A stretch of 51,711 nt of DNA from Streptomyces torulosus (GTDB lineage Bacteria; Actinomycetota; Actinomycetes; Streptomycetales; Streptomycetaceae). The position numbers were made by a program, and so were the translations under genes. The stretch covers positions 1-51,711 of the forward strand of contig NZ_LIRK01000151.1 of assembly GCF_001419765.1 (NCBI RefSeq), given 5' to 3'. Positions 20,643 through 47,991 of the stretch are shown here, piece by piece (the stretch's first letter is position 1; every line of letters starts with the position of its first letter). Below the pieces are notes generated by a model, which saw only the letters and a program-made list of their open reading frames with translations, made no database searches and was not told the origin of the DNA.

Positions 20643-20917
20643 TGGGATTCGCCCGCACCTGCTCCGTGGCCCTCGTGGGCGTGGAGGGCGTCGTCGTCGA
20701 GGTCCAGGCGGACCTCGAACCGGGCGTTGCGGCGTTCACGCTGGTGGGCCTACCGGACAAGAGCCTGACGGAGAGCAAGGACCGGGTCAGGGCGGCGGTG
20801 GTGAATTCCGGCGCCGAGTGGCCCCAGAAGAAGCTGACGGTGGGCCTGAGTCCCGCGTCGGTGCCCAAGGCGGGCAGCGGCTTCGACCTGTCAAGCACTA
20901 CGACAGGACGCCTTTAA
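20642..20917 (+). pseudogene. yifB: 5' fragment of yifB/comM, cut by the integrated element
   Basis: The first 83 codons of a YifB/ComM-type protein (GFARTCSVALVGVEGVVVEV; FTLVGLPDKSLTESKDRVRA; NSGAEWPQKKLTVGLSPAS), covering about half of the Lon-like N-terminal domain. The frame then runs into the element and stops at 20917 after eight foreign codons. The rest of the gene lies at 47983-49365. The two parts join exactly in frame through the shared TTCGACCTG. Confidence 0.93.
20882..20890 (+). other. Left attachment site core (attL)
   Basis: TTCGACCTG, identical to 47983-47991. The left flank belongs to yifB (codons Ser-Gly before Phe81), the right flank to the element. It encodes Phe-Asp-Leu of yifB. 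The length of common sequence is typical of large serine integrases, which need only a short core. Confidence 0.85.
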
Positions 20918-23414: not shown

Positions 23415-23510
23415 TAGACACCTGGTGAGTATGTCTACGGGGGAAACAGGGCGTCAACTCACACCACGTCGGGTGAGGTGGTTGTTTTGAGTCACCATCT
23501 CTGGTTACAT
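23415..23510. promoter_or_regulatory. Divergent promoter/operator between the 192-aa gene and the XRE gene
   Basis: For the rightward gene, TTGTTT (23482-23487), a 17-base spacer and TTACAT (23505-23510) place the start of transcription on the ATG at 23517, giving a leaderless mRNA. On the leftward side, TAGACA (23415-23420) and TGTCTA (23432-23437) form an inverted repeat just upstream of the 192-aa gene, a likely operator. Confidence 0.55.
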
Positions 23511-23516
23511 GGCTAC

Positions 23517-23756
23517 ATGACCGCAACGGTAGCGGAGAAAATCCGCTCACGGCTGCGTGTCCACCTCGATCTGCCGCCCCCGGACGAACGCCGGGAGCTC
23601 AGGGAGAAGGCCGGACTCTCGCAGCAGGAACTCGCCGACGTCATCGGCGCGACCCGTCAGGCCGTAAGTCACTGGGAAGCCGGTCTTCGCACCCCGCGCG
23701 GAGTGCTGCTCGATCGGTACGTCGAAGCGATCCGCACCCTCAGGGAGGCGGCGTGA
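23517..23756 (+). CDS. XRE-family HTH regulator
   Basis: A 79-residue protein whose HTH covers about residues 31-58 (LREKAGLSQQELADVIGATR, QAVSHWEAGL). No ribosome site precedes the ATG; the promoter position suggests a leaderless message, which is common for repressors of actinobacterial elements and phages. It overlaps the next gene as GTGA. Probably the element's maintenance/excision repressor or a modulator of it (inference). Confidence 0.82.
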   Translation: MTATVAEKIRSRLRVHLDLPPPDERRELREKAGLSQQELADVIGATRQAVSHWEAGLRTPRGVLLDRYVEAIRTLREAA

Positions 23757-24915: not shown

Positions 24916-25227
24916 GTGAACACGAACGAGCCGACGGCATCCGCCGACGGCACCACCGCGGGAATCACCAGCCTGGACCTGAATGCGGCCTTCGCCCGCA
25001 TCCCAGATCTCGACGACGAGACGTTGCGAGAGCTGGTCCACGGCCTCGACACCGACCTGAAGGACTGCCGAAGCGGTCACCTCGACGAGTCCGACTTGGA
25101 CCTGATCGCCGTAGCAGCCGCCGCGCGCATCACCCTGCGCCGCCGCAAAGCAGCTGCCGCCCGAAGCCGGGCAATCCACCGCGTTAGCCAACTGATCAAC
25201 AACGACACCCCCGGCGGTACGGCGTGA
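24916..25227 (+). CDS. Small unknown protein upstream of the primase-helicase
   Basis: 103 residues from the GTG at 24916. Acidic middle (LDDETLRELVHGLDTDLKDC) and a basic, Ala/Arg-rich C-terminal helix (RITLRRRKAAAARSRAIHRV). The stop overlaps the start of the primase-helicase as GTGA. Size and placement suggest an accessory replication protein, not more. Confidence 0.65.
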   Translation: MNTNEPTASADGTTAGITSLDLNAAFARIPDLDDETLRELVHGLDTDLKDCRSGHLDESDLDLIAVAAAARITLRRRKAAAARSRAIHRVSQLINNDTPGGTA

Positions 25228-27653
25228 CGACTGTTGCCTACACCGCCATCGACAGACTTCGTGACGTCCTGCGCGACCTCGGCGAGCCGCCCCGCATGGA
25301 CCGCGGCGACAGCTTCCGCACCCGCGGCCTGTGCCACGACGGCGACAGCCCCGACACCGTGTCCGTGCGGCGCGGCGACGGCAAGGTCGACATCCACTGC
25401 CACAAGTGCGACGGCGACGACCAGTACCTGACCGCGATCGGATGGACTGCGGCAGATCTGTACGACGAGCCACGTGAGCGCGGCCAAGGGCCGTCCACGG
25501 CGCTGCCCCGGCCACGGCCGAAGCCTTCCCGGCCGAAGACCCCACGGGCGCGCACAAAGGCCAAGAGGCCCCTTCGTGGCGAGACCGCCAGCTACCCGTA
25601 CTGCGACGAAGACGGCGTACTCCTCTTCGAGGTCGTCCGGATCGAGATCCCAGGCCAGAAGAAGACCTTCCAGCAGATCAGCGCGGACGGCTACTACGGC
25701 ACGTCCGGTATCCGCCGTGTCCTCTACCGACTGCCGGGCGTCATCAAGGCCGCGCAGGCCGGTGAGATCGTCGCCGTCGCCGAGGGCGAGAAGGACGTCG
25801 AGACCCTCGCCGCAATGGGCATCACTGCGACCACGATGCCCGGCGGTAGCGGCATGGGATGGAGCGATGACTACACCCAGTCGCTGAAGGGCGCGGTCGA
25901 GGTCATTGTCATCGCCGACAACGATGAGTCCGGATTGGCACACGCCGAGACTGTCGCGGCGTCCCTCGACCGGCACGGGATCGGCTACCGCGTTCTCGTC
26001 TCCGACCGAGCGAAGGACATCACCGACCACGTCGCGGCCGGCGGAACCCTCGAAGACCTGGTGCCCGTGGAAGCACCATCAGCTGCACCCGCCACCTTCA
26101 ACGACTACCTTGCGCAGCGCGGCCCGACAGATGCCGGCCTCAACGCCGTACGCCACCACAGCGCCGACGACAGCACGCGGAAGCCGGAGCCCACCCAGGG
26201 GCTGGCGACGCTGTCCGAGTCGCCCAACATGCGGCTTCCCGAAACGTTCTGGAGCAAGAGCACGCAGCTCACCGCCATCCGTGAGGCAGCCCGCCGACGG
26301 CACAACTCGCCGGAAATGCTCATGGTCATCGTCCTCACCCGTATCGCCGCGCTGTGCGGTCCAACCGTCCGCGTAGCCACCGGCGCCGGTGACCCTGCCA
26401 CCTTGAGCGTCTTTGGCGCGGGCGTCGGCGAATCAGGGTCCGGGAAGGGCCGCGGCGACAAGACCGGCAGGAAGCTGGTCCCGTTCGACTACAAGACCCT
26501 CGGCGAGGACTTCGTGTCGATCGGCATCAGCACCGGTCGGGGCATCACCGCCGCCTTCCTCGCGAAGAAGGAAGTGCAGCTCGGGCACCCGGACTTCGAC
26601 GAAGAAGCCGACGCGAAGGGGAAGCCGCAGGAGAAGCGACTCACGCAGGTCGCCACCCGCGCGTACGCCACCGAAGACGAAGGGTCGACGATGATGGCGG
26701 CGATCCAGTCGAAGCACGGCGCCGACATCCCCGGAACCCTGTGCAAGTGCTGGATTGGGGAGGAACACCGGCAGTCCAACGCCACCGAGGAACTGCGGCG
26801 GAGTCTCGATGCGGACAGCTACACCATGTCGATGTTCGCAACCTTCCAGCCGGAACCGGCGGCCGAACTGCTCGCTACGGGCAGCATCGGCCTGCCGCAG
26901 CGGACTCTGTTCACGCTCGCCTACCGGTCCGAGGAAGAGATCGAGGCGACCCGTGACCGGACCGAGATCACGGATGCGGACTGGGACGACTACGGCGACG
27001 ACAGGCAGCAAAACTTTGTGCACGTCGCCGAGTTGATCGCGCCGGGAACCAACGGAATGACGGTCGCCAAGTTCGCCGAGAACCTCCGCGACGTGGTGAT
27101 CCGGCTGCCCGTCGCGGCGCAGCGTGAGATCGCCCGGATGATCGCGGACGGCGAGTCGCGGGAAACGACCGTGCACCCGCTCGACAAGCACCGGCCGCTT
27201 CAACTCGCCAAGACCGCAGCAGTGTTCGCGCTCCTTCACGGGGAGACGGCCGTCCGCCGACTCCACTGGGAGATGGCGAACGACCTGTGGGGCGTGTCCG
27301 CCGCTGTGCGGTCCATGATCGAGGCGCTCGCCGAGACGAAGGTACGACAGGCAGCGGAGGCGCGCAGGGCGGACGCGGTGGCAACGAGCCGGGCCGTGAA
27401 GGCGGCGGAGATCGAAGTGGAGACCGGTGCGAATCCTGTCGTTGTTCGGCTGGCACGCAAGCTCGCTCGGAAGCTTCAGGCCAAGGGTCCGATGCGTTCC
27501 AGCGACGCTCAGCGCGGCCTGATCACAGGCGCCGACCGCAGGGCATACCAGGAGACGGGGGCGGACGCGCCGGTGTGGCCTGCGGTCGCCCGGTACGCAT
27601 CCGATTCGGGCATCGTCAGCATCGACGGCGATGGGGTGTTCTCGGTTGTCTAG
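25224..27653 (+). CDS. Toprim primase fused to a P-loop helicase-like domain
   Basis: An 809-residue replication protein. Residues ~35-65 hold a CHC2-like zinc site (CHDGDSPDTV...HCHKC). A Toprim domain follows (VAVAEGEKDVETLAAMGITA with its Glu, then VIVIADNDESG with the DxD-type motif). The C-terminal half has a Walker A-like loop (GAGVGESGSGKGRGDK, ~residue 400) in a DUF3987-like ATPase. It should prime and unwind DNA at the element's origin. Most AICEs carry RepSA or a primase-polymerase instead; this type is closer to phage and plasmid primase-helicases. The iteron array lies 65 bp downstream. Confidence 0.82.
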   Translation: MTTVAYTAIDRLRDVLRDLGEPPRMDRGDSFRTRGLCHDGDSPDTVSVRRGDGKVDIHCHKCDGDDQYLTAIGWTAADLYDEPRERGQGPSTALPRPRPKPSRPKTPRARTKAKRPLRGETASYPYCDEDGVLLFEVVRIEIPGQKKTFQQISADGYYGTSGIRRVLYRLPGVIKAAQAGEIVAVAEGEKDVETLAAMGITATTMPGGSGMGWSDDYTQSLKGAVEVIVIADNDESGLAHAETVAASLDRHGIGYRVLVSDRAKDITDHVAAGGTLEDLVPVEAPSAAPATFNDYLAQRGPTDAGLNAVRHHSADDSTRKPEPTQGLATLSESPNMRLPETFWSKSTQLTAIREAARRRHNSPEMLMVIVLTRIAALCGPTVRVATGAGDPATLSVFGAGVGESGSGKGRGDKTGRKLVPFDYKTLGEDFVSIGISTGRGITAAFLAKKEVQLGHPDFDEEADAKGKPQEKRLTQVATRAYATEDEGSTMMAAIQSKHGADIPGTLCKCWIGEEHRQSNATEELRRSLDADSYTMSMFATFQPEPAAELLATGSIGLPQRTLFTLAYRSEEEIEATRDRTEITDADWDDYGDDRQQNFVHVAELIAPGTNGMTVAKFAENLRDVVIRLPVAAQREIARMIADGESRETTVHPLDKHRPLQLAKTAAVFALLHGETAVRRLHWEMANDLWGVSAAVRSMIEALAETKVRQAAEARRADAVATSRAVKAAEIEVETGANPVVVRLARKLARKLQAKGPMRSSDAQRGLITGADRRAYQETGADAPVWPAVARYASDSGIVSIDGDGVFSVV

Positions 27654-27693
27654 CGCTCCCGGCGGGTGGGCGCCGGCTCGCCCTTCACACTCG

Positions 27694-27711
27694 AACTTGT
27701 TCAAACAAGTT
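27694..27711. promoter_or_regulatory. Perfect palindrome AACTTGTT-CA-AACAAGTT
   Basis: 8-bp perfect arms with a 2-base centre, 40 bases after the primase-helicase stop and 8 bases before the first iteron. It is low in GC compared with its surroundings. A regulator or initiator binding site is likely. It contains GAAC-N2-GTTC, which differs from the LexA box GAAC-N4-GTTC. Confidence 0.6.
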
Positions 27712-27718
27712 GCTCCGA

Positions 27719-27930
27719 TGCAGTCGTGCAGTCGTGCAGTCATCGCGTCGGCCAGTGCAGTCATGAATCCAGGAATCCGAGTAACCGGAGAACACGGAGC
27801 GTCACACTCGGGATTCCATACAGGTTACATATGCGGACAAATTGCCCCAGTAGTGGTTACGCGTACCGCGAGGGACGGTGAAAAAGGGATGCAGTCAATG
27901 ACTGCACGACTGCATGACTGCATGACTGCA
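27719..27930. repeat. Two inverted clusters of 8-bp iterons (candidate replication origin)
   Basis: TGCAGTC occurs at 27719, 27727, 27735, 27756 and 27890 on the + strand and as GACTGCA at 27900, 27908, 27916 and 27924. Within each cluster the spacing is 8 bases. Units at 27890-27906 form a perfect palindrome. Between the clusters are a GGAATCC/GGATTCC inverted pair (27772 and 27811), three GTAACC/GGTTAC motifs (27781, 27823, 27855) and a relatively AT-rich stretch. The 333-bp gap holds no gene. Location right after the primase-helicase gene suggests an oriV. Confidence 0.7.
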
Positions 27931-27986
27931 CTGAGAGTCGAGGCGAGCGCACACACTGCCGAAACCCGATCCGAACGGAGACCCCC

Positions 27987-28367
27987 ATGCCCAAGGACAT
28001 CGACTTCTACCCCGCACCCCGCCCGGTGTGGGTGCTGTTCAACGACGAGGAAGGCGTCACTTTCTCGCTCATGCCCGGCTGGGCAGCCGTCGAGAACGAC
28101 GACGGCATCAGGTGGACGACCCTCACCCGGCAGAACCTCCACAACTTCGAAGCGGAGTCGCTCGATACAGACGAGCACAACCTGATCCGCATGTGGGACT
28201 TGGCAGTCCACGGCGCACCGACCCTCGAAGACGTCCTCGACGCGGTTCGGGCGCGGCACCACGGCGCGACGGCCAGCGAACTGGAGGCGGCCGAGGCCGA
28301 CTACCGGATGTTCTTCAACATGCCGCCCGCACGGGGAAATACCGCTGAGTCTGAGGCGAAGCCGTGA
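27987..28367 (+). CDS. Unknown protein
   Basis: 126 residues, beginning PKDIDFYPAPRPVWVLFNDE, acidic overall, no motif recognised. Clear ribosome site (GGAG upstream of ATG 27987). It heads a run of short rightward genes downstream of the iterons and overlaps the next gene as GTGA. Confidence 0.7.
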   Translation: MPKDIDFYPAPRPVWVLFNDEEGVTFSLMPGWAAVENDDGIRWTTLTRQNLHNFEAESLDTDEHNLIRMWDLAVHGAPTLEDVLDAVRARHHGATASELEAAEADYRMFFNMPPARGNTAESEAKP

Positions 28368-29482: not shown

Positions 29483-29878
29483 ATGACCAGAAATGGCCTG
29501 ACGGAACTCGACGCGAAGGCCCAGGCCGTCATCCTGCTCGCGCGCGGCACGAACAGTGACAAGGTCGGCGAAACGGTCGGCGTGTCCGGGCGCACCATCC
29601 GACGGTGGGCCGAACAGCCCGACTTCAAGTCCGAGGTGGACGCGGCCCGACGGGCACTGCTCGACGAGGCCGTGCGGGCGCTCGCCGCCGCCAGCCGCGA
29701 CGCCATCGCCACCTTGCACGCCGCCCTCGCCGACGACTCCCCGAACGTCCGCGTGCGGGCCGCGTCCGTGCTGTTGGGCAGCCTGCCCTCGCTCACGGAA
29801 CACCTGGAGCTTTCCGAGCGGATCTCGGCCCTGGAGGCCGCCCTCGAAGTCAACCCGGATGGAAGGACCGTCGCATGA
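29483..29878 (+). CDS. HTH protein resembling phage small-terminase/phBC6A51-type proteins
   Basis: 131 residues. The N-terminus holds an HTH (AVILLARGTNSDKVGETVGV, SGRTIRRW) followed by a long helix (PDFKSEVDAARRALLDEAVR) and an Ala-rich repeat-like part. This arrangement is seen in phage-borne HTH proteins annotated as small terminase or phBC6A51-like, and also in plain DNA-binding proteins. There is no large terminase in the element. Overlaps the next gene as ATGA. Confidence 0.6.
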   Translation: MTRNGLTELDAKAQAVILLARGTNSDKVGETVGVSGRTIRRWAEQPDFKSEVDAARRALLDEAVRALAAASRDAIATLHAALADDSPNVRVRAASVLLGSLPSLTEHLELSERISALEAALEVNPDGRTVA

Positions 29879-31808: not shown

Positions 31809-32945
31809 ATGAGCCAGAGTTCAGGGGTAGATGCATCCGGCAACAGCCTTGCGACCGCCGCTTCCGGCGGCCAGATCTTTCAACGGGTGAGCTTTCAACG
31901 GATGACAGACGACAACAGCCTTGCGGCCGTCGTCTCTAACGAGAGCCCCGCGCTCTCCGGTGCCGCACGCGAAGCCCTCGCCGCCGGCACCGCCGACTCA
32001 ACACGGCGCGCCTACTCCGCCGACTGGACCGAGTTCACCGCCTGGTGCGCCAGCAATGGACATACCCCGCTGCCCGCCACTCCCGAGGCGGTCGTCGAGT
32101 ACGTCGCCGCGCTGACGACCATCCCGCGCCCCCGGACCGGGCGGCCGTACTCGCCCAGCAGCATCGAGCGGGCCGTCGCCGCCATCCGCACCGCACACTC
32201 CGCCGCGAACGTCCCGCCGCCGTCGACCAAGGGGGCCCGCATCATCCTGCGCGGCTACCGCGACCGGCTCGCCCTCGCCAAGGACCCCGCCGCCAAGCCT
32301 CGCCGCGCGCAGCCAGCCGTGCCGACCGCGCTCCGCGCCATGCTGGCCACCCTCGACCGGGACACGCTGATCGGGAAGCGGGACGCCGCCCTTCTGCTGC
32401 TCGGGTATGCCACGGCCGCCCGCGTCTCGGAGCTGGTCGCCCTCGACCTGGCCGACGTCCCCGAGTCCGAGCACGGCATCGAAGCCTCGCTCTATCGCAA
32501 GAAGATCAAGGCGTTCAGCGACACCGCCGTGCCGTATGGCAGCAACCTCGCCACCTGCCCGGTGCGCGCCGTCCGTGCCCTGCGGGAGGCCCTGGCGGAA
32601 GTGGGCCGGACTGAGGGCCCGCTGTTCGTCCGGATCGACCGTCACGGCCGTATCGCGCCGCCGATGTACCGCCGCGGCGTACCGATCGGTGACCCGTCCG
32701 GTCGGCTCACCGCGCAGGCCGTTGCCCAGATCGTCGAGCGGACCGCCGCAGCGGCCGGCCTCGAAGGCCAGTGGACCGGCCACAGTCTGCGCCGCGGATT
32801 CGCCACCGCCGCCCGCAAGGCCGGTCACGACCTCGTACGGATCGGCCGGCATGGCGGATGGGCCGACGGCAGCAAGGCCCTGCTCGGCTATCTCGAAGAC
32901 TCCGACCGGTGGGAGGACAACCCCGTCGCCGGGACGGGGCTGTAG
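31809..32945 (+). CDS. Tyrosine recombinase/integrase
   Basis: A protein of up to 378 residues with a SAM-like N-terminal domain (STRRAYSADWTEFTAWCASN) and a full catalytic domain: Arg in ATAARVSELVALDL, Lys in KKIKAF, HSLRRGF (HxxR), HGGW, and Tyr in LLGYLED. GATAAT at 31793-31798 is a strong -10 just before the ATG at 31809; a later in-frame ATG at 31902 would drop 31 repetitive residues. It is the second recombinase of the element and of another class than the integrase at the left end. Its target is not evident; the 17-bp inverted repeats nearby are a candidate. Its 3' end overlaps the convergent XRE gene by 58 bases. Confidence 0.9.
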   Translation: MSQSSGVDASGNSLATAASGGQIFQRVSFQRMTDDNSLAAVVSNESPALSGAAREALAAGTADSTRRAYSADWTEFTAWCASNGHTPLPATPEAVVEYVAALTTIPRPRTGRPYSPSSIERAVAAIRTAHSAANVPPPSTKGARIILRGYRDRLALAKDPAAKPRRAQPAVPTALRAMLATLDRDTLIGKRDAALLLLGYATAARVSELVALDLADVPESEHGIEASLYRKKIKAFSDTAVPYGSNLATCPVRAVRALREALAEVGRTEGPLFVRIDRHGRIAPPMYRRGVPIGDPSGRLTAQAVAQIVERTAAAAGLEGQWTGHSLRRGFATAARKAGHDLVRIGRHGGWADGSKALLGYLEDSDRWEDNPVAGTGL

Positions 32946-33706: not shown

Positions 33707-33928
33707 GTGCGTTCCTTTTCCGGCCAGCTGCTGCGCGCTCAGCGCGTCCGCTGCGGCCTCTCCGTCGCTGACCTCGCGGCCCGTACAGGGCGTTCCCCTT
33801 GGGTCGTCTACGACTACGAGACCGGCCGGGCCCAGCCCCCGCTCAGCGTCGCGGACGCACTCGCCGACGCGGTGGGCGTCAGCCTCGACGTGCTCCTCGC
33901 CGACGACCGCCAGGCGGTGACCGTCTGA
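33707..33928 (+). CDS. Small XRE-family HTH protein heading the tape-measure cassette
   Basis: 73 residues with an HTH (QRVRCGLSVADLAARTGRSP, then WVVYDYETGRAQPP). GTG start at 33707 with AGGGG upstream. Its stop overlaps the start of the tape-measure gene by one base, so the two are translated together. Possibly an autoregulator of the cassette. Confidence 0.8.
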   Translation: MRSFSGQLLRAQRVRCGLSVADLAARTGRSPWVVYDYETGRAQPPLSVADALADAVGVSLDVLLADDRQAVTV

Positions 33929-36900
33929 TGGCCGGCGCCTTTCGCATAGCCGAAGGTTTTGTCGAGGTCACGGCCGACGAGTCGGGCTACGACCGGGCGA
34001 TGCAGCGGCTGAAGAACAAGAAGAACACCGTCGGCGTCGAGGTCGTCCTCGACGACAGGTCCGCGCTCGCCCAGATCGGCCGCATCACCGCGGACCGCGT
34101 CCTGAACGTCCGCGTCGACCTCGACAAGACGGCCCTGTCCCGGCTGAGGATGCAGGACGTCGAGGTGTCGGTCCTGCCGAAGATCTCTGACGCCGCCTAC
34201 CGCCGCGTACAGACCCAGCTCGACCGGCTCACCGCCGAGCGCGTGGTCAACGTTCGCGCCTCGGTCGACACTCGGGTGGCTGCGCAGGAGATCCGCAATC
34301 TGCTTCAGCGCCGTCAGGTGCGGATTGGTGTCGACGTCGACACCCGTGTTGCCGCGGACTCGCTGGCGAACCTGACCCGACGGCGCACCATGACGGTGCA
34401 GGCCCGCGCGGACACCACGGCCGCCACGAACAGCCTGCGGTTCCTCACCCGTGACCGGACCGTCAACGTCCGCGCCAACATGTCGGGCCTCGGCGCCCTC
34501 ACCAACCTCGCATCGAACGCCGGGGGCGCGGCAGGCAGCGTCGGCATGCTCGGCTCCCGGTTCGCCGCCCTCGCCGCTGCCGCACTCACCGCTCTCCCCG
34601 CCGTCGCCTCCCTCAGCCAGGCCATCGTCTCGATGGGGCCTGCTGCCGCTGTGGCCGTTCCCGCGCTGGGTGGGCTGCTCACCATGGGCGCCGCTCTCGC
34701 CGTCGGACTGCGCGGGGTCGGCGGAGCGTTCAAAGCCGCGTCCGAGGCAGGCACCCAGACCGGCGCCAAGGTTGCTGGCGCTGCACGCGCTTTGGAGTCC
34801 GCGCACCTCAACGTGGCCCGCGCCGCCCGCGCCCTGAAGGAGGCCGAGACCGACGCGGCCCGGCAGATCGCCGACGCCCAAGCGCGGGTGAAGGACGCCG
34901 CCGAGGACGTCCGTGACGCCGAGGTACGGGCCGCCGCCGACCGCAAGGCTGCACTGCGCCGGGTCGCCGATGCCGAGCGGGACCTGGCCGACGCACAGAA
35001 GGACGCCAAGCAGGCCCAAGAGGACCTGAACGAGGCTCGGAAGGAAGCGGCCGAGCAGCTCGAAGACCTCAACAGCCGCCTCGCCGGCGCGCAGCTGGAC
35101 GAGCGGCAGGCCGTCCTCGACGTCACGGACGCGGAGAAGGACCTTGCCGCGGTCAAGGCCAAAGGCTCGAAGGCGACCGCTGAGGAGTTGGCGCAGGCCC
35201 AGCTCGACTACGAGCGCGCGGTGCAGCGGCTGCGTGACCAGCAGACGGAGACGGCCCGGCTCCGCGAGGAGACCGCCGAGGCGAACCGGGCGGGCGTCGA
35301 GGGTTCCGACACCGTCCGCGACGCACAGGACAGGCTCGCCGGCTCACAGCGCGCGGTGAAGGACCGCACGCGGGACGTTCGTGATGCGCAGGTCGAGGCC
35401 GCGCAGGTCGCCAAGGACGGCGCCGAGGCGGTACGGGACGCGCAGCAGCGCCTCGCCGACGCGCAACGTGGTGTCGCCGACGCGCAGATAGCCGCCGCCC
35501 GCCAGGTACGGAGTGCGCAGGAGTCCCTCGCTGACGCGCAGCGCGCGGTGACTGCGGCGACGGAGCGGGGCGCTGCGGCCACCGACAAGTACGCGGAGGC
35601 CATGGCGAAGCTGTCGCCGAACGCGCGGAGCTTCGTCACCGCCGTACGGGACATGGGCCCGGCGTTCTCGGCCCTGCGGATGGAAGTCCAGGACCGGCTA
35701 TTCCGGGGTCTCGGGGAGTCGTTCACCCGCATGGCGACGGCTTCGCTGCCGGCGCTGCGGTCGGGGCTCGGGGGGATGGCCGACGTCCTCAACCGCATGG
35801 GCCGCGGCCTGATGGACACCTTCACGCGGCTCGCCAATCAGGGCCTGTTGAAGCGCATGTTCGACGGCTTCACGGCCGGTATGAAGCCGCTCGAAAAGGT
35901 CCCCGGCCAGTTCTCGGAGATGTTCGTCAAGCTCGGCATCGCCGCCGCGCCCGCTATGAAGCGCGTCTCGACGGCGATCGGGAACGCCTTCACCCGCGTC
36001 AGCGGCAAGCTCGATAAGGCGTTCAAGTCCGGGGCGCTGGAGAAGGCCATCAACAAGGCCCTCGACGTGGCGGTCGCGTTCGGCAAGGTCCTCGGGGACG
36101 TCTTCGGGACCGTCGGCAACATCATGGGCGCCGCCAGCAAGGGCGCCGGCGACGTCCTCGGCGGGCTCGGCGCCACGTTCAAGGAACTGCGGCGCATCAC
36201 CGCAATGCCGGAGATCCAAGAAGCCCTCACGAGCATCTTCAAGGCCCTCAACGACATCGGAAAGCTCGTCGCCATCACCTTCGGCGCGGTCCTCCAGGCC
36301 GTCCTGCCGCTGCTGGCGAAGCTCGCCCCCGTGGTGTCGGAGCTGGCCCGGAAGTTCGCCCCCGTCCTGGTGCTCCTCGCCGACACCCTCGGCAAAGCCC
36401 TCGGCCCGATCATCGACGCGCTGCTGCCGGTGGTGTCCGACCTCGGTGACATCCTCGTGCGGGTCGTCCGTATGGTCCTGCCGCTGCTGAAGCCGATCGG
36501 TGACCTGCTCGGCACGGTGGTGAAGGCGCTGGCGCCGGTGCTGCCGGTCGTCGGGAACATCGTGACGACACTCGTCGGCGCCCTGGTCAAGGGCCTTCAG
36601 CCGGTGATTGCCGCGCTGATCCCGGCGGTGGCGACGTTCGGGAAGTTCCTCGGCCAACTGGCGCCGCTCCTCACGCCGCTGTACCAGGCGTTTGCGCCGC
36701 TGGTGCCGGTCCTCGGGCAGATGGCCGCCGCGCTGATCAACCTGGCGATGCAAGTGATTACGCCGCTGCTGCCGCTGATCGTCCGTCTGGCCGGCCTGAT
36801 GTCGGGTCTGCTGGCTGGTGCGATCAACACGGTGGTGCCGGTCATCACGACCGTCGTGAAGTGGCTGACGACGTTCGCGGAGAAGGCCGCCGAGGTCGTG

Positions 36901-38571
36901 AAGTGGGTGGTCGACAAGTTCCGGTGGCTGTATGACGTGCTGGTCGGGCACAGCATCATCCCGGATTTGGTGCGGGACATTGTCCGCTGGTTCACGTCGC
37001 TGTGGACGAACACGAAGCGGATCTTCAATGTTCTGAAGGACTGGCTCGTCAAGACCTGGCGCGACTTGTGGTCGGGCATCCGGGAGCGCTGGAACAACTT
37101 CTGGTCGGGGCTGCGGACGTCGATGTCGAATGCGTGGCAGTCCGTCCGCAACAGCGTGACGAACCTGCGGACGACGGTGTCGAACGCGTGGAACGGGCTG
37201 TGGAACGGCGCCCGCGACAAGATCACGTCGATCTTCTCCACGATCCGCGACCGGATCAGTTCCTTCAAGTCGGCGATGCGGGACGCGTTCACGGCGCTGC
37301 GGGACAGCCTGGGCCGGATCTGGGACGGCGTGAAGGGGAAGATCGCCAGCCCTGTCCGCTACGTGGTTTCCCAGGTGTACAACGGCGGAATCCGCCGCAT
37401 GTGGAACGCCATCGCCGGAAAGATCAACTCCAATATCACGCTGCCCACCATCAAGCTCGGCTTCAACAAGGGCGGCGTCGTCCCCGGCCACGGGAACAGC
37501 GACACCGTCCCCGCCATGCTCACCCCCGGCGAACGCATCCTCTCCACGCAGCAGGTCGCCCAACTCGGCGGGCACCGAGGCATCGACGCGATGCTCGGCC
37601 AGGACCGGCCCACCCAGACCGGGGGGAACCCGAGCAGGCAGGAAGAGCGCCGCCGTCAGCAGGGACCGGTGCAGCACTTCGACGAAGGCGGCATCGTCGG
37701 CAACATCACCTCCGGGCTGGGCAAACTCGGCGACGCCGCCTCCTGGGCGAAAGACCTCGTCGTCGGCGGGCTGAAAGAAGCCGCACAGAAAGCACTCCGG
37801 TCCCTGGTGCGCCCACTCATCGCCCGCATCCCCAACACGGGCATCGGGAACCTCCTGCGGGGCCTGTCGAACAAGGCAGTCGACGGAATGATGGGCTGGT
37901 TCACCAAGGAAGACAAGAAAGCCGTCGGCGGGCCCGGCGTACAGAAGGCGTTGTCGTGGGCGCGCACACAGGACGGCAAGCGGTACCAGTGGGGCGGCAA
38001 CGGCAACCCCTCGTGGGACTGCTCCGGGTTCATGTCCGCCATCGAGTCCGTGATCCGTGGGCAGCGACCGCACCGCCGGTGGGCGACCGGCGCGTTCGTC
38101 GGGAACAACGGCCCCGCCGGATGGGTCCGCAACCTGAACTCCCCGTTCATGATCGGTATCACGAACGCGGGTGTCGGCCACACCGCAGGCACGATCGCAG
38201 GCGTCAACGTCGAGAGCAGGGGCGGGGACGGTGTCATCGTCGGGAAGCGGGCCCGCTCCTACAAGGACAGCCTGTTCACCAGCCGGTGGGGTTTCGCGCC
38301 GGCCGCGAAGTTCGATTCGGGTGGCCTGCTTCAGCCGGGGGCGACGATGGCCATCAACAAGACCGGGAAGCCGGAAGCTGTCCTTACGGCCGAGGAGCAC
38401 GCCGCGTTCCGGAGCATGGTCCGCAGCGGAGGCAGTTTGACCGTGACCTTCGGAGACGTCGTGATCCGGGATGCCAACTTGACCAGCCCGGCCGACCGGA
38501 AGCGGGTCGTCAACACGCTGATCGGCGACATCAAGGAAGGCCTCCGGAACTTCGACAGGGCACGCGCATGA
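33928..38571 (+). CDS. Phage tape-measure-like protein with NlpC/P60-type peptidase end
   Basis: A 1547-residue protein starting at ATG 33928 (AGAFRIAEGFVEVTADESGY). The N-terminus, with FVEVTADESGYDRAM, is typical of tail tape-measure proteins. A hydrophobic stretch lies at about 205-255, a long Ala/Asp/Arg coiled coil with DAQ repeats at about 280-550, a second very hydrophobic part at about 790-990, the GHSIIPDLV motif near 1005, and GGVVPGHGNSDTVPAMLTPG near 1185. The end carries an NlpC/P60-like domain with Cys1365 (WDCSGFMS) and His1418 (VGHTAG). In phages such proteins set tail length and help DNA pass the envelope. Here no other virion gene is present. The frame is intact and long, so it is unlikely to be decay debris. 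Confidence 0.88.
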   Translation: MAGAFRIAEGFVEVTADESGYDRAMQRLKNKKNTVGVEVVLDDRSALAQIGRITADRVLNVRVDLDKTALSRLRMQDVEVSVLPKISDAAYRRVQTQLDRLTAERVVNVRASVDTRVAAQEIRNLLQRRQVRIGVDVDTRVAADSLANLTRRRTMTVQARADTTAATNSLRFLTRDRTVNVRANMSGLGALTNLASNAGGAAGSVGMLGSRFAALAAAALTALPAVASLSQAIVSMGPAAAVAVPALGGLLTMGAALAVGLRGVGGAFKAASEAGTQTGAKVAGAARALESAHLNVARAARALKEAETDAARQIADAQARVKDAAEDVRDAEVRAAADRKAALRRVADAERDLADAQKDAKQAQEDLNEARKEAAEQLEDLNSRLAGAQLDERQAVLDVTDAEKDLAAVKAKGSKATAEELAQAQLDYERAVQRLRDQQTETARLREETAEANRAGVEGSDTVRDAQDRLAGSQRAVKDRTRDVRDAQVEAAQVAKDGAEAVRDAQQRLADAQRGVADAQIAAARQVRSAQESLADAQRAVTAATERGAAATDKYAEAMAKLSPNARSFVTAVRDMGPAFSALRMEVQDRLFRGLGESFTRMATASLPALRSGLGGMADVLNRMGRGLMDTFTRLANQGLLKRMFDGFTAGMKPLEKVPGQFSEMFVKLGIAAAPAMKRVSTAIGNAFTRVSGKLDKAFKSGALEKAINKALDVAVAFGKVLGDVFGTVGNIMGAASKGAGDVLGGLGATFKELRRITAMPEIQEALTSIFKALNDIGKLVAITFGAVLQAVLPLLAKLAPVVSELARKFAPVLVLLADTLGKALGPIIDALLPVVSDLGDILVRVVRMVLPLLKPIGDLLGTVVKALAPVLPVVGNIVTTLVGALVKGLQPVIAALIPAVATFGKFLGQLAPLLTPLYQAFAPLVPVLGQMAAALINLAMQVITPLLPLIVRLAGLMSGLLAGAINTVVPVITTVVKWLTTFAEKAAEVVKWVVDKFRWLYDVLVGHSIIPDLVRDIVRWFTSLWTNTKRIFNVLKDWLVKTWRDLWSGIRERWNNFWSGLRTSMSNAWQSVRNSVTNLRTTVSNAWNGLWNGARDKITSIFSTIRDRISSFKSAMRDAFTALRDSLGRIWDGVKGKIASPVRYVVSQVYNGGIRRMWNAIAGKINSNITLPTIKLGFNKGGVVPGHGNSDTVPAMLTPGERILSTQQVAQLGGHRGIDAMLGQDRPTQTGGNPSRQEERRRQQGPVQHFDEGGIVGNITSGLGKLGDAASWAKDLVVGGLKEAAQKALRSLVRPLIARIPNTGIGNLLRGLSNKAVDGMMGWFTKEDKKAVGGPGVQKALSWARTQDGKRYQWGGNGNPSWDCSGFMSAIESVIRGQRPHRRWATGAFVGNNGPAGWVRNLNSPFMIGITNAGVGHTAGTIAGVNVESRGGDGVIVGKRARSYKDSLFTSRWGFAPAAKFDSGGLLQPGATMAINKTGKPEAVLTAEEHAAFRSMVRSGGSLTVTFGDVVIRDANLTSPADRKRVVNTLIGDIKEGLRNFDRARA

Positions 38572-42099: not shown

Positions 42100-44157
42100 T
42101 CAGGCCGCGAGCCGGTCGGCCTCGCGGCGGGTGACGGCGGCGACCACGTCGGCCCGCTTGATGCCGCGCCGGTTCTTGCCCTCGCCGTCGTCGGTGGTGC
42201 CCCATACCTGGTCGGTCTTGATGCCCCACGCCTTGACGGTGGTGGTGACGTTCTCGCCCTTCCACTCGCCGTACACGTCGGGGCGGAGCTGGGCGAGCCG
42301 GTCGGCGAGCCGCTCGCACCACACGGCCTTCTCCTCCGGGCCCATGACGGCCAGGACGTCGCCGAGGACGTCCATGCCGACGGTGGCGGACGGGCCTTCG
42401 CCGAGGGCGTGGCCGGTGATGTTGCCGTACTCCTCGCGCATCTTCCGCGCCCGCGTCACGATCTGCTCGGCCTTGGGTGCGTCGACGAACGCCGAGGCGA
42501 CGATGCGCGGGTCGTCGCCCTCGCCGGACAGGTAGCAGATGCCGAGGTCGCGGCGGCTGAACATGGTCGCCCGGATCCCCGACTTGTACGCCCCGGTGCC
42601 GAGCACCATGTCGTTGGCCTGGTGGTTCATCACCTTCAGGCAGAACCGCAGGACGGCGTTCGCGGAGATACCGGTGGGCAGCGACTTCGAGTCGGGCCGC
42701 TGGGTGGCGAACATGCCGATGATGCCGAGGGCCGGGCCGCGCTTGGTGATGTCGGTGCAGATCGATTCAATCTCGGCGCCGTGCTTCTCGTGCTCAAACA
42801 CGACCTGGCACTCGTCGATGCCGATGACGATGGGGTGCAGGCCGAGGCTCTTGTCGTTCGCGAGGGCCGGGGTGACCTTCGATTCGGGGCAGCGGGCGTG
42901 CGGCAGGCCCTTGATGACCTTGGCCCGGCGGCGCAGCTCCTCCTTGACCTCGCGGAGCGCGTGGAGGATGTACTCGATGTCCTCGTCCTCCTCGCCGGCC
43001 CGGTAGCGGTGGGCGACGGGTTCGAGCGCGCGGAGGTCGCCGGTGCCCTTCAGGTCGAACGGCAGCAGCCACGCGCGCGGGTCGAGGGCGGCGATGAGCA
43101 TCAGCAGCCTGAGCAGGAACGTCTTGCCCATGCGGGGGATGGAGCCGATGACGATGGAGGCGAACATGAGGGTGACCTCGACCCACCGCATCCGCTGGTC
43201 GTTGCCGAAGATGACCGGGCGGAAGAGGTCGACCTGCCCGTCCTTGAGCAGCGGCCATGCGGGCTTGGTGGTCTCGTTCATCGGCTTGTCGCCGACCCAC
43301 AGCACCAGGCGGCCCTCGTGCTCGTTCTCGTCGCCGGACGGCCATACGCAGCCGACCTTGCGGCGCAGGCCGGACGCCAGCTGCTCGCGCTTCTCCATGA
43401 TGTCGTCGGGCGTGACGCCGTAGGGAAGGTCGAGGTCGGCGCGGTAGCCGGGCCCGTCGCGGACGATTTCGCTGGTGAAGCGCATGCCGTCCATGTCGCC
43501 GCCCTTCTTCAGCGCGGCGGAGATCTTCGGGTTACCGATGGAGTCGAGGCCGCGCAGCACGATCGTGCCGGTGAGCTTCTGCAACTCGGTGCGCATGACG
43601 GCCGGCCCGATGACGGGGGCATCGGGCTGCTGCCCGAAGTAGCCGAGGGTCATGACCCCGCCAGCGGCGAACGCCCACAGGAACGCGGGCGCCATCACGT
43701 ACAGCCACAGGGCGAAGCCGAGGCCGAACACCGCGGCGACGACGAGGACCAGGCCGCGAAGTCGGACGCGGTTGCCGCGGAGCCGGGCCAGATGCAGGTA
43801 CTCCTCGACGTCCTCGGTACGGACGGCGTGCCCGCGAAGCGGTGCGGCCTCGCGGTCCCACAGCCACCGGTTCGTCTCGGCGACGAAGCGGCAGGCACCG
43901 CGCGGGGCCATGACGGTCAACTGGATGCCGTACCAGGGCAGGCGGAGCCCGTGGTAGGCGGTGGCGTAGCCGAGGCGGCTGCTGGTGTGACGGGCGGCCG
44001 TGCCGAATTCGGTGCCGTCCTTCAGCCAGGCGGGGAGGATCGGCCGGCGCTTCTCGTCGGTGACGCCGGGCTTGGGCAGGTTCGGGTTGTCGACGGGCAC
44101 CGGGGCGGCGGGCGCCTCGGGTGCGTCGGTGCTGGCGGATACGACGGTGTCCGTCAC
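42100..44157 (-). CDS. traB: FtsK/SpoIIIE-type conjugative DNA translocase (TraB/TraSA)
   Basis: A 685-residue protein with two membrane segments near residues 135-180 (LVLVVAAVFGLGFALWLYVM; FLWAFAAGGVMTLGYF), Walker A GSIPRMGKTFLLR at about 338-350, Walker B IVIGIDECQVVF at about 443-454, FATQRPDSKSLP, and a C-terminal winged-helix-like part (IKRADVVAAVTRREADRL). This is the layout of the single-protein conjugation pumps of Streptomyces, which move double-stranded DNA between hyphae. GTG start at 44157 with GGAGAG upstream. It is the last gene of the leftward transfer module. Confidence 0.9.
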   Translation of the reverse strand: MTDTVVSASTDAPEAPAAPVPVDNPNLPKPGVTDEKRRPILPAWLKDGTEFGTAARHTSSRLGYATAYHGLRLPWYGIQLTVMAPRGACRFVAETNRWLWDREAAPLRGHAVRTEDVEEYLHLARLRGNRVRLRGLVLVVAAVFGLGFALWLYVMAPAFLWAFAAGGVMTLGYFGQQPDAPVIGPAVMRTELQKLTGTIVLRGLDSIGNPKISAALKKGGDMDGMRFTSEIVRDGPGYRADLDLPYGVTPDDIMEKREQLASGLRRKVGCVWPSGDENEHEGRLVLWVGDKPMNETTKPAWPLLKDGQVDLFRPVIFGNDQRMRWVEVTLMFASIVIGSIPRMGKTFLLRLLMLIAALDPRAWLLPFDLKGTGDLRALEPVAHRYRAGEEDEDIEYILHALREVKEELRRRAKVIKGLPHARCPESKVTPALANDKSLGLHPIVIGIDECQVVFEHEKHGAEIESICTDITKRGPALGIIGMFATQRPDSKSLPTGISANAVLRFCLKVMNHQANDMVLGTGAYKSGIRATMFSRRDLGICYLSGEGDDPRIVASAFVDAPKAEQIVTRARKMREEYGNITGHALGEGPSATVGMDVLGDVLAVMGPEEKAVWCERLADRLAQLRPDVYGEWKGENVTTTVKAWGIKTDQVWGTTDDGEGKNRRGIKRADVVAAVTRREADRLAA

Positions 44158-47982: not shown

Positions 47983-47991
47983 TTCGACCTG
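47983..47991 (+). other. Right attachment site core (attR)
   Basis: TTCGACCTG, identical to attL. The left flank is element DNA (CTCAGCTCAACA), the right flank continues yifB (GCGGTCGCC). The circular form would carry attP made of this left flank, the core and the sequence following 20890. Confidence 0.85.

Follow-up and report, generated by a model that had tools for sequence, protein, structure and literature searches.

A mirrored octamer array behind a primase-helicase gene as a probable replication origin of an integrated element in Streptomyces torulosus

Where does an integrated, conjugative-looking element of an actinomycete begin its own replication, and which protein recognizes the site? 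To our knowledge, few origins of actinomycete integrative and conjugative elements (AICEs) and few actinophage origins have been mapped. We addressed this question in a 51,711-nucleotide stretch of Streptomyces torulosus DNA (contig NZ_LIRK01000151.1 of assembly GCF_001419765.1, forward strand; hereafter the window), which carries a 27.1-kb AICE-like element integrated in comM. Within the element, a gap between the gene for an 809-aa primase-helicase (25224-27653) and a 126-aa open reading frame (ORF; from 27987) contains an array of short repeats. An earlier interpretation made from the DNA letters alone (the sequence-only reading) had proposed that this array is an origin made of iterons and associated with the primase-helicase gene. 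The position of such arrays, kept after homologous helicase genes, supports that proposal, and we consider it very probable that the array is the replication origin of the element, read by the adjacent helicase.

The array and its position behind related helicase genes

The repeat unit is the 8-bp RTGCAGTC, whose first position is a purine. Nine exact copies of TGCAGTC/GACTGCA were found, spanning 27718-27931 as octamers, with five in the forward orientation (TGCAGTC starting at 27719, 27727, 27735, 27756, and 27890) and four in reverse (27900, 27908, 27916, and 27924). The array begins about 65 bp past the stop codon of the 809-aa gene. The sequence-only reading had described two groups of opposite orientation with 8-base periodicity inside each. 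The nine copies stand, but the right group is mixed, its innermost copy (27890) being forward, and the fourth copy on the left departs from the 8-bp spacing, lying 21 bp from its neighbour. The cluster arms form a 26-bp inverted repeat that is 96% complementary and separated by 154 bp.

The 7-mer occurs nine times within 212 bp. When the whole window was shuffled 20 times with its dinucleotide content preserved, no 7-mer exceeded seven copies in a stretch of that length, very simple words being excluded. The two-unit pattern TGCAGTCRTGCAGTC had five exact matches in the source genome (98.5% complete), all within the array; among the matches listed, the other 17 carried one or two mismatches. 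Other parts of the earlier description held in full: the gap is 333 bp long (27654-27986), it contains GGTTAC and GGAATCC/GGGATTCC repeats, and its middle (27766-27888) is relatively AT-rich, at 46% A+T compared to roughly 30% for the element, a value matched by 0.4% of the element's 123-bp segments. The 16-bp core of a palindrome between the gene and the array (27694-27711) had no second copy in the window with up to three mismatches allowed, and an Rfam scan returned nothing useful. On the minus strand, the inner inverted octamer pair (27889-27907) makes a hairpin with a T-run behind it, which resembles a terminator.

To locate relatives, a profile of the helicase half was built from five sequences and used at a cut-off of E 1e-30 or better. 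This half was found in 11 of 392 genomes of the genus, S. torulosus included (12 places), and in 50 viral contigs; with two added loci, from a Nonomuraea plasmid and genome G044, there were 64 loci in all, of which 63 were counted after one without downstream sequence (L217) was dropped. For each locus we scored the commonest 6-mer with at least two copies per orientation in the 400 bp that follow the stop codon of the helicase gene, with a threshold of six copies that was chosen after a first look at the data. Short repeats stand directly downstream of the helicase gene in the window, and at 55 of the 63 loci a single 6-mer reaches the threshold of six there, with copies in each orientation. 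The window (L174) and the four discovery loci (L173, L175, L157, and L172) are all within the 55, and 50 of 58 loci reached six when they were excluded. As controls, six copies were reached in 227 of 3365 other 400-bp segments of the same loci (overlapping, in 100-bp steps) and in 79 of the 835 stretches that follow other ORFs (150 aa or longer). Because near-identical Mycobacterium prophages (L223-L233) inflate the total of 63, we also dereplicated the loci at 70% identity, and 28 of 36 reached six. Two loci, L195 and L196, reach six through very GC-rich words. The stretch after the helicase gene was the top-scoring segment of its locus in 41 of the 63 and tied in seven.

When a 7-mer motif with one mismatch allowed was counted instead, 55 of 63 loci (a partly different set) scored above all 20 shuffles. 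Among these 55, the right cluster was mainly opposite to the left in 41, the median gap between clusters was 107 bp (5 to 166), and the middle was AT-richer than the surrounding 300 bp in 52, so that an AT-rich segment lies by the repeats there as it does in the window. The commonest same-orientation spacings were 8 bp (55) and 9 bp (59). Seven of eight named phage or prophage records carried the array: Gordonia phages Hibiscus, Santhid, Reyja, and TinyDot, Mycobacterium phages phiGD17-1 and prophiGD12-2, and Dulem virus 32. Conservation in sister elements, which the sequence-only reading had suggested as a check, was absent for the exact octamer and present for the position of the array, in the 55 of 63 loci and seven of eight records.

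In the named records, small hypothetical genes are annotated wholly or partly over the arrays, directly after the helicase stop codon (L235, L236, L239, L241, L242, L237, and L240). The calls are Hibiscus 55, Santhid gp52, Reyja gp57, prophiGD12-2 33, TinyDot 58, phiGD17-1 77, and Dulem XCD05793.1. The layout suggests that some annotated small phage genes are origin DNA, and these may be spurious calls.

Helicase fold, motif divergence, and primase exchange

The Toprim primase half at the N terminus of the 809-aa protein matched Pfam at E 2e-4 to 4e-4, just below the curated cut-offs, and phage primase families matched it more strongly (E 1e-21). The DUF3987-like half scored above its cut-off (E 1.4e-9), and DUF927, the helicase domain of SaPIbov1-type Rep, had no match in the protein at E 0.01. 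An AlphaFold model of the helicase half together with 40 viral relatives had a mean predicted local distance difference test score (pLDDT) of 90.6 and a predicted template modelling score of 0.84. Its best structural matches were MCM helicases (6skl chain 2, Z 17.6, root-mean-square deviation 4.4 over 284 residues), and each of the 50 matches listed was either an MCM chain or a complex that includes MCM. For the helicase half, an AAA+ core of the MCM type is predicted, a statement that concerns fold only. A sequence search of the PDB with the helicase profile gave six weak matches (E 0.003-0.6), to P-loop proteins and an ATPase inhibitor.

The last 75 residues form a predicted winged helix behind a 56-residue helix, so that by predicted fold the protein is a helicase with a C-terminal DNA-binding domain. 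Folded alone without an alignment, this domain had a pLDDT of 82 and matches up to Z 8.4; the top matches (cullin, Rpa2, Mcm4, and others) were tied and indicate no function. The part of PMC5862659 that treats such primase fusions suggests that DUF3987 is a helicase and that their winged-helix domains read origins. Three candidate initiators, of 809, 231, and 103 aa, had been named in the sequence-only reading. The most likely is the 809-aa protein itself, presumably acting through its C-terminal winged helix, and the 231- and 103-aa proteins are less likely. Single-protein scans of the genome and viral contigs with the 809-aa protein were unproductive, as was a plasmid search for homologues of the 231-aa protein.

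The repeat motif diverges between lineages, while the layout stays. Units across the loci include GGGGGAC, GTGGACA, GTCGGAA, GTAGGAA, GTTGGAA, GTGTACC, GTGTCAG, and GTGCAGTC. Across 32 dereplicated loci (from 59, including L190, L198, L212, and L213, which were added by hand because they look arrayed but failed the shuffle test), motif similarity correlated with identity of the helicase core (rho 0.48) and of the winged helix (rho 0.36), with none of 500 permutations as high in either case.

More telling than this correlation is a natural swap in the sister element L167. Compared to the window, its TraB is 79% identical (part compared), its XRE regulator 62%, and its primase stretch 88% over 169 residues, while its helicase half has 24% identity to that of the window and 48% to that of L172. 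The L167 array unit is AGGACA, and its GGACA also occurs in the units of L172 and L157. Across relatives, the N-terminal half may be Toprim, Prim-Pol, unassigned, or missing (the 540-aa protein of L183), and helicase and array stay paired.

As controls for the primase half, we used seven genes that share it and do not belong to this helicase subfamily. Their helicases are AAA_25 in L155, L156, and L169 (two-orientation counts of 5, 0, and 6) and canonical DUF3987, at E 1e-85 or better, in L159, L170, and L171 (4, 6, and 5); L158, which was unscanned, counted 0. With counts of 0-6 in these controls, we rejected the idea that the link to the array is carried by the primase half or by DUF3987 generally. 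One control, on a plasmid of Streptomyces sp. NEAU-sy36 (L155:5490-5700), has inverted 12-bp repeats of the CCATGTTCGTCA type behind its Toprim-AAA_25 gene; this weaker inverted array may represent another kind of origin, paired with a different helicase.

A further short element, CAGGTYA, was noticed by eye before it was counted. Of 39 loci (36 representatives and three of the eight named records), 12 have it in the first 320 bp past the helicase gene, whereas 100 shuffles gave 1.4 such loci on average and at most 5. In the reverse direction, four of the 39 have it. Its positions fall 85-172 bp past the stop codon, save for one extra copy in L231, and it is possibly a priming or host-factor site. 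In the window, the word GGTTACAT is found exactly only at 23503 and 27823. At 23503-23518 it is followed by GGCTACAT, and this second word overlaps an in-frame ATG (23517) of the XRE regulator ORF; the presence of GGTTACAT at the start of this gene and at 27823-27830 suggests a shared operator.

Several observations weigh against an origin read by its own helicase. In 15 of the 63 loci another segment outscores the stretch after the helicase gene, and eight fall below six copies: L187, L205, L206, and L219 lack an array, L179, L199, and L231 reach only five copies, and the array of L201 extends across the stop codon. The mirror layout does not hold everywhere, since the right cluster is not mainly opposite in 14 of the 55 shuffle-passing loci. 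Among the named records, phage Catdawg has no array, and segments scoring equally high occur elsewhere in Santhid (3 of 51) and Reyja (1 of 51). Two primase-half controls, L169 and L170, also reach six copies, with GC-rich words that by eye form no two mirror clusters. Finally, the partial correlation of motif similarity was higher for the helicase core (rho 0.37) than for the winged helix (0.16); therefore, the correlation does not single out the reading domain, and it may partly reflect plain co-inheritance of motif and helicase.

The host element, a replication model, and other explanations

The features of the array and the element are collected in Table 1. Joined together, the flanks of the element give an uninterrupted 540-aa comM reading frame; they encode the two ChlI/Mg-chelatase parts, and on the right side dprA and a sigma factor come next. 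A serine recombinase beside the candidate attL, the 9-bp repeats, and the restored comM correspond to the integrase and site-specific insertion of an AICE. An FtsK/SpoIIIE-type Tra protein is also present (Pfam E 9e-4, below the curated cut-off; PHROG FtsK/SpoIIIE-like, E 5e-30), and a DUF2637 protein is encoded on the right side. The gene layout is that of an actinomycete integrative and conjugative element. AICE replication proteins are listed as RepSA, RepAM, and Prim-Pol types in the relevant part of PMC3218068. In a scan that covered two of these three types and some of the ORFs, the 809-aa protein matched neither DUF3631 (RepAM) nor Prim-Pol, while relatives L168, L179, L181, and L182 do carry Prim-Pol. 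We use the label AICE-like because the replication protein fits neither RepAM nor Prim-Pol. A tRNA scan gave nothing useful.

Table 1. Coordinates of the array, its neighbouring gene, and the element in the window
Feature	Position	Strand	Remark
Candidate attL core TTCGACCTG	20882-20890	+	9-bp direct repeat, inside comM
Serine recombinase, 606 aa	20936-22756	+	Likely integrase, just inside left end
Primase-helicase, 809 aa	25224-27653	+	Toprim half, DUF3987-like/MCM-fold helicase, C-terminal winged helix
Helicase half, residues 338-809	26235-27650	+	Conserved partner of the array
Predicted winged-helix domain	27426-27650	+	Proposed iteron reader (putative binding)
18-bp palindrome AACTTGTT-CA-AACAAGTT	27694-27711	.	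Between gene and array
Left cluster	27718-27741	+	Three tandem RTGCAGTC octamers (27718, 27726, 27734)
Fourth left octamer GTGCAGTC	27755-27762	+	21 bp from neighbour
Middle region	27766-27888	.	46% A+T; candidate unwinding region
CAGGTTAC	27821-27828	+	Window form of the CAGGTYA element
Forward octamer	27889-27896	+	Inner edge of right cluster
Right cluster	27900-27931	-	Four tandem reverse octamers (27900, 27908, 27916, 27924)
FtsK/SpoIIIE-like TraB-type transfer protein	42100-44157	-	
Candidate attR core TTCGACCTG	47983-47991	+	9-bp direct repeat

Other genes of the element are of mixed character. A 1590-aa tail tape-measure protein (33799-38571, plus strand; PHROG 6090, E 2e-139) lies within this conjugative-looking element, and a weak small-terminase match (29483-29878, plus strand) likewise places phage genes among AICE genes. 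A tyrosine recombinase in the middle of the element (31809-32945, plus strand), beside the serine recombinase at the left end, is possibly a nested or second integrase.

The array, its linkage to a helicase subfamily, the divergence of motif with helicase, and the predicted fold were computed here, and we propose the following model on this basis. Once the element has excised, the 809-aa protein would bind the octamers via its C-terminal winged helix, and each inverted cluster would probably take one hexamer. Opening of the AT-rich middle would follow, the MCM-fold helicase would unwind outward, and the Toprim primase half would make primers, so that the circle would replicate theta-wise and probably bidirectionally.

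A broader proposal is more tentative, and we give it slightly less than an even chance. Under this proposal, the locus represents an origin family that is widespread but unrecognised among the AICE-like elements, phage-plasmids, and tailed phages of actinobacteria, in which self-loading MCM-fold initiators with interchangeable primases each read their own octamer 'address' in two mirror clusters behind the gene. Two hexamers would be loaded in opposition at the clusters, giving bacteria a counterpart of the MCM double hexamer whose arrangement is fixed by DNA sequence alone, and helicase and origin would move as a cassette while the primase is swapped. As a search rule, looking about 300 bp past genes of this helicase subfamily yields predicted origins in dozens of elements, and the many natural helicase-iteron pairs could be used to derive a recognition code.

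Repeats in an element that encodes a TraB-type protein could instead be a clt site, recognised by the FtsK-like TraB translocase for conjugation. According to the part of PMC3583192 on transfer, Streptomyces clt loci contain short repeats, pSVH1 TraB reads 8-bp ones, and the pIJ101 clt lies near korB, so that a clt need not adjoin tra. In our element the array is 14 kb from the tra gene, and the TraB of L167, 79% identical in the part compared, comes with an array that differs along with the helicase. Because phages have like arrays and the array follows the helicase rather than tra, we regard the clt explanation as improbable; the records concerned are Gordonia and Mycobacterium phages or prophages, where conjugation is unexpected (no transfer-gene search was made there). 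An operator for an XRE or other repressor of the downstream operon, from the 126-aa gene onward, would suit the location of the array upstream of the gene at 27987, with the 18-bp palindrome and the GGTTACAT word common to the XRE gene start (23503, 27823) nearby. However, the array goes with the upstream helicase, while the downstream genes differ across the eight annotated phage records. Nine copies in 214 bp, in two mirror clusters around an AT-rich middle, also exceed an ordinary operator, and a simple consensus scan of 27600-28050 found no sigma-70-type promoter. We regard the operator explanation as improbable.

We consider it very improbable that the array is a partition (parS-like) site or a copy-number or incompatibility locus rather than a start point. 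No ParA/ParB family was found among the element proteins scanned against Pfam (not every ORF), and the AT-rich middle and helicase linkage suit an origin better. The operator and partition explanations, though possible, are both less economical than an origin. A different concern is that the array could be a functionless chance microsatellite produced by slippage of an octamer, since arrays of the very same unit occur in unrelated genomes. A scan for (TGCAGTCN)3 detected at least 120 stretches in genome contigs and two in viral contigs, where a reversed control unit gave 12. Among the 80 matches listed, most were from Bacteroidales or other Bacteroidota, and only L080 had matches on both strands. 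Given these tandem arrays in unrelated genomes, we rejected the TGCAGTC octamer as a conserved signal in its own right. In the 17 octamer loci inspected, however, the tandem arrays run in a single direction, apart from a stray reverse copy in L065, as do those of Polaromonas pPNAP02 and Arthrobacter pA2H2, whereas here two clusters mirror each other. A chance octamer match in genome G118 lies about 585 kb from the helicase gene of that genome. The microsatellite explanation is strongly disfavoured, and the least probable of those considered, because the position of the array is kept in relatives with different repeat units. The (TGCAGTCN)n tandem arrays at L022-L141 come mostly from Bacteroidales metagenome-assembled genomes, with several per genome in some Bacteroidales.

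Comparison with known systems

The replication origin proposed here resembles that of satellite phage P4, whose alpha protein is a multifunctional primase, helicase, and origin binder acting with the octamer iterons of ori1 and crr. The alpha protein belongs to a different helicase superfamily, and the likeness is one of general description. Another parallel comes from Staphylococcus aureus pathogenicity islands (SaPI) and the staphylococcal cassette chromosome SCCmec, where the C-terminal domain of SaPI Rep and SCCmec Cch2 binds iterons downstream of the helicase gene, as described in part of PMC7581432. In both settings an integrated mobile element has its own primase, and an initiator helicase reads short iterons just downstream of its own gene, a binding that is putative in our case. 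In the same part of that paper, SaPIbov1 Rep and Cch have DUF927, and SaPI5 Rep and Cch2 have a Primase_Cterm/D5-type domain; here, by contrast, the helicase is DUF3987-like with a predicted MCM fold, the hosts are actinobacteria, the octamers form two mirror clusters, and the motif diverges.

Within Streptomyces, replication of plasmid pWTY27 depends on repA, on repB (prim-pol), and on a 300-bp sequence that contains five repeats of 8 bp and five inverse ones of 7 bp. RepA binds this sequence, and the plasmid replicates bidirectionally (the part of PMC3583192 on replication). A primase-type rep gene adjoining 8-bp repeats in both orientations is common to both systems, but pWTY27 uses two separate proteins in place of the one fused here, and its repeats are GTGGGAAC/TTCCCAC. 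RepA (522 aa) can be likened to this helicase by description only. SLP1-type AICEs with Prim-Pol/RepPP share integration, an integrase, an FtsK-like Tra protein, and a primase-type replication module, as far as the relevant part of PMC3218068 describes them; the primase half here differs in being Toprim (DnaG-like) and fused to the helicase. The word 'iteron' is absent from the main text of that paper. We found no description of this origin family in the open-licence papers searched, which is weak evidence of absence. Collectively, these comparisons show that the principle is already known from SaPI, SCCmec, and pWTY27, in the parts of the papers cited, while what looks new is the helicase subfamily, the MCM fold that it has in this role, the arrangement of octamers in mirror clusters in AICE-like elements and phages alike, and the behaviour as a cassette.
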